From contig SHZY01000060.1 in the NCBI GenBank assembly GCA_009692065.1, positions 1 to 32,377 on the forward strand: a DNA stretch of 32,377 bases, given 5' to 3'. Positions 22,472-25,891 of this stretch are shown piece after piece; position 1 is the stretch's first letter; each line of letters starts with the position of its first letter. The translations under genes and the position numbers were made by a program. Under the pieces are notes generated by a model. The model did not search any database, was not told the origin of the DNA, and worked only from the letters and a program-made list of their open reading frames with translations. This stretch comes from Gemmataceae bacterium. GTDB lineage: Bacteria; Planctomycetota; Planctomycetia; Gemmatales; Gemmataceae.

Positions 22472-25400
22472 TTACTTCGCAAACCAATCCTGCAACGGCT
22501 TCACCGTCAACTCGCCCTCGCGCAGCGCCTTGCACGCCTCGACGGCGGCTTCGGCGGCGGCGAGCGTGGTGATGCAGGTCACGCGGTTCATCACGGCGGC
22601 GGCGCGGATCTTGCCTTCATCCGTTCGCGCTCCCTTGCCGGACGGAGTATTGATGACCAGATCGACCTCGTGGTTTTTCATGTAATCGATCAGGTTCGGC
22701 CGGCCTTCTTGCAGCTTGCAGATTTCCACCACCTCCACGCCCCCGGACCGCAATGCCTTGGCGGTGCCGCGGGTTGAGAGCAGGTGATAGCCCATTTCGA
22801 CCAGCGCCCGCGCGACCGCGACGATGTCTTTCTTGTCGCGGTCGTTGACGCTGATGAACACCGTGCCGTCCTTCGGCAACGCGCTGTTGGCGGCGATCTG
22901 GCTCTTCGCGAATGCCATCGGGAAGTCGTCGGCGATGCCCATCACTTCGCCGGTCGAGCGCATTTCCGGACCCAGGATGATATCGACGCCGGGGAACTTA
23001 TTGAACGGGAAGACGCTCTCCTTCACCGAGAAATGCGTCGGCACAACCTCACGATGGATGCCGAGTTCATCGAGGGTCTTGCCCGCCATGATGAGAGACG
23101 CGATCTTCGCGAGCGGCACGTTGGTAGCCTTGGCGACGAAGGGAACGGTGCGGCTGGCGCGAGGGTTCACTTCGAGCACGTAGACAACCCATCCCGACGG
23201 CTCGCTGCGTTCGCCATCGGGCTTGGCTCGGCTCTTGATGCCCGTCACTGCGAACTGGACATTCATCAGCCCCTTGACGTTCAGCTCCATCGCCATGGCT
23301 TTGGTTTGCCGTTTGATCTCGTTCACCACGTCGGCGGGCAAGCTATAAGGCGGGATGACGCACGCGGAGTCGCCGGAGTGGATACCGGCTTCTTCGATGT
23401 GCTGCATGACGCCGCCGATGATCGCGCGCGTGCCGTCCGCGAGGCAATCGACATCGACCTCGACCGCCGCTTCGAGAAATTGATCGATCAGGATCGGCTT
23501 GCCCGCGGACACTTCAATCGCCTGGTTGACGAACTGCTTCATGCGGTCTTCGTCGTAAACGATTTCCATCGCCCGGCCGCCGAGGACGTAACTGGGCCGC
23601 ACGAGCACCGGATAGCCGATCTCGCGGGCAGCGAAGACCGCACCTTGCAGATCGCGGGCGGTGCGATTCTTCGGCTGCTTCAGGCCGAGGCGCTCGACCA
23701 TCTCACCGAAGCGTTTGCGGTCCTCTGCCATGTCGATCGAATCGACGCTGGTGCCGATGATCGGCGCACCCGCGGTTTCCAGCGCTTTCGCGAGATTCAG
23801 CGGCGTCTGTCCGCCGAACTGCACGATGAGCCCCTTCGGCTTGACGCGATCGCAGATGTTGAGCACGTCCTCCGTCGTCAACGGCTCAAAGAAGAGATGG
23901 TCGCTGGTATCGTAATCGGTCGAGACGGTCTCCGGATTCGAGTTAACCATGATCGTCTCGAACCCCGCCTCGCGCAGCGCAAACGCCGCATGGCAACAGC
24001 AATAATCGAACTCGATGCCCTGGCCGATGCGATTGGGGCCGCCGCCGAGGATGACGATTCTCTCTTTCCCGTCCTTGGCGGGGCGTGTTTCATCCTCAGG
24101 AGTCAGCGAAGAAGGCGTTTCTGCCTGATCTCTGACCCCTGACCCCTGACCCCTGACTCCTGACGCGGGGCGTTCATACGTCGAGTAATAGTACGGCGTA
24201 TACGCCTCGAACTCTGCCGCGCAGGTATCGACGAGCTTGAACACCGCCTCGACGCCGCGCGATTTGCGATGGGCGCGGACGGTGAGGTCGTCGGTGTGCC
24301 AAAGGTGTGCAAGCTGTCGATCGGAGAAGCCGTGCTGCTTGGCTTCCCAGAGCAAATCGTCGTTGGCGGCTTCGAGGCTGGCACAGGCGCGGAGCTTGTC
24401 CTCGACGGCGATGATGTCCTTGATGTTGGTGAGGAACCACGGATCGATCTTGGTGCGGGTATGAATCTCCTCGGTGGTCATGCCCATCTTGTAGGCGAAG
24501 CGGATGTGCCAAATGCGATCGGTGTTCGGCGTGGCCAGCGACTTGATCACCGCTTCCACCGACGGCTGATTGTCGGTGCCCCACGCGTCCTTCTGATCGC
24601 AGCCCAGACCGAAGTGCCCGGTCTCGAGGCCGCGCAGGGCTTTTTGCAGCGACTCCTTGAACGTGCGGCCAATCGCCATGGTTTCGCCGACCGACTTCAT
24701 CTGCGTCGTCAGCGTTGGGTCGGCATCGGGGAATTTCTCGAAGGCGAAGCGCGGGATCTTGGTGACCACATAGTCAATCGTCGGCTCAAAACACGCCGAC
24801 GGCCCAAAAAAAGTGTCAGGACCCTTTTCAGAAGAAAATGGTCCTGACACCTTTTTCACCTTTTTTGGGCTGGTGATGTCGTTCTTCAGCTCGTCGAGGC
24901 GGTAGCCGATGGCGAGCTTGGCGGCGATTTTCGCAATCGGGAAGCCGGTCGCCTTCGATGCCAAGGCACTCGATCGGCTCACGCGCGGATTCATCTCGAT
25001 GACGATCATGCGGCCATTGGCGGGATCGGTGGCGAACTGGATGTTGCTACCGCCGGTCTCGACGCCGATCTCGCGGATGATCTTGAGGGCGGCATCGCGC
25101 ATGCGCTGGTATTCCTTGTCGGTCAGCGTTTGCGCCGGCGCCACGGTGATCGAATCGCCGGTGTGGACCCCCATCGGGTCGAAGTTCTCGATCGAGCAGA
25201 TGATGACGACGTTGTCGGCGTTGTCGCGCATCACCTCAAGTTCGTATTCCTTCCAGCCGATGACCGATTCCTCGATGAGGACTTCGGTGGTAGGTGAAAG
25301 ATCGAGGCCGCGCGTTACAAACTCGTTGAATTCCTCGCGGTTGTAGGCGATGCCGCCCCCCGTGCCACCGAGGGTGAAGCTGGGTCGGATGACGCAAGGG

Positions 25401-25891
25401 AGCCCGATCTGATCCCGGATTTCCAGCGCATACGACAGCGTCTTGACGACGTAGCTCTTGGGCACTTCCAGCCCGATTTTGATCATCGCGTCCTTGAACT
25501 TCTGGCGGTCCTCGGCCTTGTCGATAACGTCGGCTCTGGCTCCGATCATCTCGACGCCGAATTTTTCGAGGATGCCATGCTTGTGCAGGTCCATCGCCGT
25601 ATTGAGACCGGTCTGCCCGCCGAGCGTGGGGAGCAAGGCGTCGGGGCGTTCCTTCTCGATGATCTTGGCGACGACTTCCCAGGTGATTGGCTCGACATAG
25701 GTGCGGTCCGCCGTACTGGGGTCCGTCATGATCGTGGCGGGATTGGAATTGACGAGCACGACGGTGTAGCCTTCTTCGCGAAGGGCTTTGCAGGCTTGCG
25801 TGCCGGAATAGTCAAATTCGCACGCCTGCCCGATGATGATTGGTCCCGAGCCGATGAGGAGGATTTTCTTGAGATCGGTACGCTTCGGCAT
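22472..25891 (-). CDS. carB: Carbamoyl-phosphate synthase large subunit with three in-frame repeat insertions
   Basis: CarB makes carbamoyl phosphate for pyrimidines and arginine, using ammonia from CarA (not in the window). The 1139-residue protein has both ATP-grasp halves. The first starts at [19 protein letters not shown] and includes [14 protein letters not shown] and [19 protein letters not shown]. The second starts at [20 protein letters not shown] and includes [15 protein letters not shown] and [19 protein letters not shown]. The C-terminal MGS-like regulatory domain runs from [14 protein letters not shown] to LQDWFAK. It is about 60 residues longer than the usual length near 1075. 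The excess lies at residues 342-364, about 575-590 and 891-900, each coding for a different repeat element. I chose MPKRTDLKK at 25891 as start by family; a longer form from 25936 would begin inside a palindrome. The strong ribosome site upstream fits an out-of-frame ATG better. Confidence 0.95.
23193..23221. repeat. Palindromic repeat inserted in carB (third site)
   Basis: Arms CCCGACGGC (23193-23201) and GCCATCGGG (23213-23221) flank TCGCTGCGTTC. On the coding strand it gives [11 protein letters not shown] in a loop between the strands FAVTGI and YVLEVNPR, where E. coli CarB has only a short turn. Confidence 0.75.
24132..24166. repeat. Five 7-base tandem repeats in carB (second site)
   Basis: CTGACCC occurs three times, then CTGACTC and CTGACGC, with no gaps. 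On the coding strand this reads [15 protein letters not shown], followed by a Ser/Pro/Thr/Glu-rich tail. It lies just before the second synthetase half, after YYYSTYERP. Confidence 0.85.
24802..24868. repeat. Long palindrome inserted in carB (first site)
   Basis: Core arms GTGTCAGGACC (24812-24822) and GGTCCTGACAC (24839-24849) are perfect, with outer arms CCCAAAAAA (24802-24810) and TTTTTTGGG (24860-24868). It encodes [20 protein letters not shown] in place of a few residues. AAGTGTCAGGACC-type sequences are known to me from intergenic REP-like elements linked to Y1-type (TnpA-REP) transposases, but no such transposase is in the window. Confidence 0.85.

Follow-up and report, generated by a model that had tools for sequence, protein, structure and literature searches.

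We found that a single essential gene in the window (the whole 32,377-nt stretch of Gemmataceae DNA that was analysed) carries three unrelated repeat elements in frame, as a sequence-only reading of the same DNA had claimed. The gene is carB, and the elements lie in three loops of its product (Table 1). It is likely that the inserts belong to three selfish, hairpin-forming repeat families, present in this genome and in related ones, that spread as DNA units, survive only in tolerant loops and are carried passively. The elements are dispersed, their frames are open, repeat signals are concentrated in the three loops, congeners differ at the same loop and a whole unit recurs at several places.

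Three in-frame repeats in carB

Table 1. Features in and around carB, in window coordinates.
Feature	Positions	Strand	Description or basis
carB, carbamoyl-phosphate synthase large subunit	22472..25891	-	translation, Pfam, PDB 1bxr match
Site 3 turn DNA	23180..23245	-	residues 898-919, predicted beta hairpin before EVNPR strand
Element 3, 29-bp palindrome	23193..23221		coding strand CCCGATGGCGAACGCAGCGAGCCGTCGGG, peptide PDGERSEPS(G)
Site 2 linker DNA	24062..24172	-	residues 589-625, between oligomerisation domain and second synthetase half
Element 2, inverted heptamer array	24097..24162		coding strand [CAGGRRT]n, spacer, short inverted arm
Site 1 loop DNA	24794..24871	-	residues 356-381 of CarB (P0001), 26 residues
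Element 1, 69-bp hairpin around GTGTCAGGACC ... GGTCCTGACAC	24802..24870		inverted repeat, RNA fold
Palindrome, TTTAGCGCTCGC type	25913..25966		just upstream of carB start 25891; overlaps alternative longer start

The carB translation begins with MPKRTD at 25891, with a second in-frame ATG 15 codons upstream at 25936. Pfam matches to CPSase_L_D1/D2/D3 and MGS fall within this single open frame, and the predicted fold (AlphaFold, 31-row alignment, mean pLDDT 81) resembles that of E. coli CarB with a TM score of 0.94 by target in the structure comparison. The expected domains, MGS included, are present, and we infer that CarB is still a working enzyme. All three inserts are low-confidence loops, with pLDDT <50 at residues 353-384, 593-611 and 903-913, among 14 such segments in the model. 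The alignment with 1bxr confirms that extra residues occur where E. coli CarB is short: about 20, 25 and 16 residues at sites 1, 2 and 3, at hand-counted positions of about E. coli 341-346, 549-559 and 833-838. Part of this extra length reflects the normal variability of these loops among family members. The window has no Rfam match at gathering thresholds.

Element 1 is a strong hairpin. Its inner arms (24807-24829 and 24834-24856) are 23 nt with 91% pairing and its outer arms (24802-24815 and 24857-24870) are 14 nt with 93%; the RNA fold has a free energy of -38.6 kcal/mol (z -6.7), which none of 200 shuffles equalled. Element 2 folds weakly (z -2.0, 9/200 shuffles equally good). Its tandem part is a CCTGACC array (TRF 24124-24164, period 7, 5.9 copies), and together with its inverted partner, CAGGAGTCAG at 24097-24106, the whole element spans about 66 bp. 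Element 3 has 9-bp arms, and its fold is modest alone (z -2.9, 1/200 shuffles equally good); it falls below the threshold of the CarB repeat-signal scans described below. The sequence-only reading gave the hairpin as 67 rather than 69 bp and recorded one arm of the heptamer element.

All three elements are in the carB frame and free of stops. It had been suggested that they code for tolerated peptides in all frames used. This was not supported as worded: elements 1, 2 and 3 are stop-free in 3, 2 and 6 of the six frames, so that only the 29-bp palindrome is fully open. The heptamers are open on the CAGG strand only, the opposite strand having a stop every 21 nt. One could imagine that the inserts are never translated, being cut from the mRNA or skipped by ribosomes like palindromes in Magnusiomyces mitochondria, a precedent mentioned in the excerpted text of PMC6649704. 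We regard this as extremely improbable here, as elements 1 and 2 (69 and 66 bp) are in frame and stop-free, and the CarB inserts lie within single open frames in all rows but one (G036), which is split near site 2. Because the reading frames were chosen for openness, this evidence amounts to consistency rather than to a blind test. In the G036 row (L121), CarB runs over two overlapping frames near site 2, through either an assembly error or a real frameshift.

Copies of the elements elsewhere in the genomes

Other genomic copies had been predicted for each element. This was clearly the case for the heptamer, while elements 1 and 3 are rare in the source genome (G000; 255 contigs, 5.97 Mb) and dispersed in its relatives. 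In G000 a double heptamer occurs at 120 places against 0 for the reversed pattern, and three successive CAGGRRT units match 309 times against a control of 0. The triple unit was found in 18 of 59 genomes (reversed-pattern controls 0-3), with 36-309 matches in G000, G002, G005, G006, G010, G023 and G035 and no more than 18 in the other genomes. Among the matches listed, 43 of 57 heptamer clusters in G000 are accompanied by an inverted partner no more than 130 bp away; the right-arm motif was met at 36 of 1630 random positions of the heptamer-cluster loci. These 57 clusters come from the first 100 of the 120 double-heptamer places, with clusters near locus ends dropped. By a rough edge rule, heptamer elements measure 34-169 bp.

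Searched as a paired hairpin, element 1 gave 14 hits spread over 6 of the 59 genomes and none in the control; three of the hits are carB site 1 (G000, G001 and G032). A single-arm pattern barely beats its control (65 against 55), so that the paired-arm pattern is needed. Within G000 the exact pair is confined to carB; beyond it, the genome showed only one degenerate hairpin (contig C144) and one arm truncated where contig C128 ends. Five of 17 element-1 loci were flagged as coding, namely the three in carB, one weak case and one judged to be chance. An arm match in PriA (L002, G000 contig C131) was rejected as chance because the second arm is missing, and the residues there resemble what we take to be normal PriA. 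The same protein has a linker, REGEAPAEPGGRNGSAGASPSQ, that resembles another in-frame palindromic repeat; linkers of this type are presumably common in planctomycete proteins. For the palindrome at site 1 of G010 we found no second exact copy.

The full palindrome of element 3 turned up 20 times, against 0 in the control, and the 5 genomes (of 59) that contain it all belong to the window's genus; a half pattern had suggested no family (11 against 5 in the control). Four of the 20 are carB site 3 (G000, G001, G002 and G004), and elsewhere in G000 there are two copies at 3 mismatches. Nine loci, including the four in carB, were flagged as coding and 11 were not. In the stem, 8 cells changed on both sides compared with a shuffled mean of 3.1, seven of them at one pair, and two of five covariation measures did not exceed shuffles.

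The idea that carB is a special case was not upheld. Seven other NCBIfam-named genes of the genus, encoding LysC, PurL, ValS, LeuS, MiaA, QueG and MnmG, carry in-frame repeats. Element 3 is in frame in LysC (G002), PurL (G006), a near-identical PurL (G004), ValS (G000) and a kinase-like protein of G001, while heptamer elements occur in LeuS (G004) and MnmG (G006). In G000, eight of the 57 heptamer clusters among the matches listed sit in reading frames whose two flanks both show coding bias: carB, aspartate kinase, MiaA, QueG, an amine oxidase, an RND transporter, a DUF1552 protein and a GH57 protein. Seven of these are read on the stop-free strand and the GH57 case (L295) is mixed. The codon-bias flags are heuristic, and the antisense frame also passed in L370, L373 and L378. 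The idea that intragenic right-arm heptamers escape TGA through TGT gave no useful signal (T in 1/12 against 0/94).

The repeat segments of LeuS, PurL and ValS are extra residues with respect to solved homologues; for MiaA the excess over the solved homologue is only about 5 residues. By eye, the LysC loop mirrors carB in that congeners hold different inverted heptamers there. It is 10 residues long in G001, 13-14 in order rows with full data and 6 in class rows.

Several further observations were made along the way. Besides element 3, ValS of G000 (L380, contig C238) has about 28 extra residues in the region PPASLPRERGEEAAKTPPADAGGSP, whose flanking parts are nearly contiguous in 1gax. At 26747-26850 of the window, two units of 26-27 nt that resemble GTGGCAYGGTCTCCTGACCGTGCCAC lie in inverted orientation with 50 nt between them, and the 868-residue minus-strand ORF there has no Pfam match; a similar unit adjoins a heptamer array in L271.

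Turnover at the three CarB loops

CarB matches were obtained in 58 of 59 genomes, some of them weak paralogue matches only, and 87 of the 95 genomes in a family search yielded one at the chosen threshold. With 5 of 7 order genomes and 10 of 15 class genomes represented, the CarB alignment comprised 101 rows, some partial; a short fragment (G003) was left out. In these 101 rows, inserts of at least 8 residues are confined to the three loops and the N-terminus, with one exception of 13 residues in one row. Strong inverted-repeat or 7-bp-period signals numbered 43 in the 101 coding sequences, and 39 of them fell within the three loops, which make up about a tenth of the protein. Three of the four outside came from one partial, misplaced row (G035). 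Codon-shuffled CarB sequences gave no strong signal in the same threshold scan.

Rows with a repeat signal were 20 of 85 in the family, 0 of 5 in the order, 0 of 10 in the class and 1 of 78 in other lineages. Family rows were scanned as whole stop-to-stop frames and the 78 other-lineage rows over the matched stretch only; those 78 come from 80 loci, L122 and L132 being left out as Gemmataceae. The flagged rows are mostly draft assemblies. The sole other-lineage signal is a heptamer array in CarB of an uncultured cyanobacterium (L171), which is in frame with peptide NPKSKIQN at about codons 666-676 of the matched stretch and could be an independent cyanobacterial parallel.

Site 2 has a median length of 28 residues across 81 family rows, against 31 in 5 order rows and 13 in 10 class rows; for site 3 the corresponding medians are 16, 12 and 10. 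Many long loops at these two sites have no repeat signal, so loop variation has other sources too. At site 2 of L263 (G087), about four near-identical 30-bp units (peptide GSPYPSANAA) represent another kind of loop growth.

Site 1 falls into two length classes: 83 of 95 rows have 5 residues there, and the remaining 12 have 17-28. In a quick CarB tree with the insert columns removed (90 of the 101 rows; L122 and L225, identical in its alignment, were both counted), the long form requires 7 changes, of which starred branches force 5 or more. On this basis the long form was gained and lost several times, or was exchanged. It is an older long-loop form comprising more than the hairpin alone.

The alignment with planctomycete CarB showed that congeners carry different repeats at the same loops. 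Five genomes of the genus have CarB rows spanning site 2, the other four being 83 to 88% identical to the window's. At this site G000 has the CAGGRRT array, G001 an in-frame CGCTTGCGGC palindrome, G002 an inverted GGGGAGA-like element, G004 a CAATCAT heptamer array and G006 an inverted TTGCAAA-like heptamer element. At site 3, G006 has a heptamer element and G005 a CGCTTGCGGC palindrome. Palindromes of the CGCTTGCGGC or TTAGCGCTCGC type, like that at site 2 of G001, also lie in the window at 7112-7165, 15956-16002, 16622-16707, 20187-20230 and 25913-25966. As worded, the proposal that carB was entered three times is not supported at site 3, where the element, common to G000, G001, G002 and G004, is most simply seen as inherited.

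One unit recurs as a whole. The 77-bp element at site 2 of G004 carB is found again at site 3 of G006 carB (84% identity) and in frame in a PfaA-like synthase of G006 (91%), an assignment below the model's cut-off. Its spacer keeps 23/32 and 25/32 bases in the two G006 copies, whereas random 32-mers have a median of 8, so that the likeness goes beyond the repetitive arms. Two further, weak matches on G006 contig C94 (76%, spacer 17/30) and G001 contig C38 (72%) both lie outside flagged frames.

Could such arrays have grown where they stand? Local slippage and template switching might produce heptamers and their inverted copies in place, with a genome-wide heptamer bias giving the appearance of dispersal; it has been suggested that heptamers promote slippage of the polymerase (excerpted text of PMC4679880). 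The spacers of heptamer elements in G000 look unconserved by eye, which would fit local growth too. Nor did we see target-site duplications for heptamer elements (k=4, 0/44; k=3, 1/44 against a shuffled mean of 0.98), with edges set by a rough rule. However, growth in place does not account for a 77-bp unit that recurs, spacer included, at two other sites of a sister genome, and elements 1 and 3 are dispersed though they are not tandem repeats. We therefore think this explanation unlikely.

A second possibility is that the inserts are functional, as selected linkers or as mRNA hairpins tuning carB expression or enzyme regulation. The strong site-1 hairpin (z -6.7) and the family-wide length of the site-2 linker (median 28 against 13 in 10 class rows) are in its favour. 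On the other hand, insert sequence and length vary between congeners, 83 of 95 rows have a site 1 of just 5 residues, and unrelated enzymes hold similar peptides, all of which make a selected function improbable.

Known systems and a possible mechanism

A likeness to the Rickettsia palindromic elements (RPE) had been proposed and is supported. These are in-frame palindromes (Ogata et al. 2000, 2002, as cited in PMC10969869, PMC6649704 and PMC3733652). In the excerpted text of those sources, RPE share with our elements dispersal as palindromes, in-frame location in unrelated metabolic genes and host proteins thought to be functional; as with RPE, copies here occur both in coding frames and outside genes. 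The differences, as far as those excerpts go, are that we see several families unrelated to one another, heptamer arrays among them, in a planctomycete with a large genome and with congeners differing at the same loop. The comparison is by description, RPE being about 150 bp and elements 1-3 being 69, 66 and 29 bp, the smallest unit here having 29 bp and the largest roughly 100 bp or more.

Other families share single features. According to the excerpted text of PMC3733652, GTAG/CGTC REPs occur inside ORFs, sometimes two per gene (uvrA of Opitutus terrae), REP families exist in Planctomycetes too and intragenic REPs are proposed to be neutral when located in a linker or loop. Our elements are likewise dispersed palindromes inside ORFs. 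Unlike these REPs, they have no clear tag and no RAYT link was found: a GTAG/CGTC tag lies within 12 bp of the edge in only 7/44, 3/20 and 2/14 copies (counted without a random control), and the element-1 arm is in none of 30 Y1 transposase loci, which cover part of the Y1 matches listed and come from genomes other than the two richest in element 1 (G026 and G032).

TAACTGA heptamer repeats of Beggiatoaceae and cyanobacteria are, in the excerpts of PMC4679880, mostly intergenic, open on one strand and seldom within ORFs. They resemble our heptamers in being 7-bp arrays open on one strand only, and the tandem 7-bp units described here are dispersed in the genome as in STRR-like repeats (120 and 309 places, controls 0). 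In contrast to what those excerpts describe, our arrays form inverted pairs (43/57 among the matches listed) and insert inside conserved enzymes, and the heptamer differs between genomes. The intragenic RU repeats of enterobacteria, presented in part of PMC2759123 as small, non-autonomous and residue-adding, also lengthen proteins and are set apart by size (127, 168 and 103 bp) and by their MITE-like description.

In-frame palindromes, above all in Rickettsia, and intragenic REPs of some species are thus already known from these partly consulted sources. What is added here is an environmental lineage in which such repeats sit inside several essential enzymes and congeners differ at the same loop. 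Among the matches listed from the open-licence literature, none described palindromes or inverted heptamers as coding parts of planctomycete enzymes.

Taken as DNA units that spread, the repeats would land widely, and we infer that they have moved between places. Intragenic copies would persist only if in frame, stop-free on the sense strand and within a tolerant loop or linker, selection presumably removing all others; which insertions are tolerated would follow from which element frames are open. The insert peptide would be translated and carried passively, probably as a neutral passenger, and old copies would be overwritten, decay or be lost. Because CarB has three tolerant loops, different relatives could hold different repeats there. 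It is conceivable, and we put it forward tentatively, that the inverted heptamer arrays are an undescribed type of mobile DNA in Gemmataceae, in which whole hairpins, the two arms with their spacer, are copied by an enzyme, the heptamer diversifies by lineage and the same tolerant loops in essential enzymes are colonised repeatedly.

If the inverted arrays are mobile, permissive enzyme loops would receive insertions time and again and would supply proteins with new segments. The congeneric loops would provide a comparative series for protein segments made by insertion, for protein tolerance and for palindrome movement. Loop insertions in planctomycete proteins may accordingly be repeat DNA rather than adaptation.
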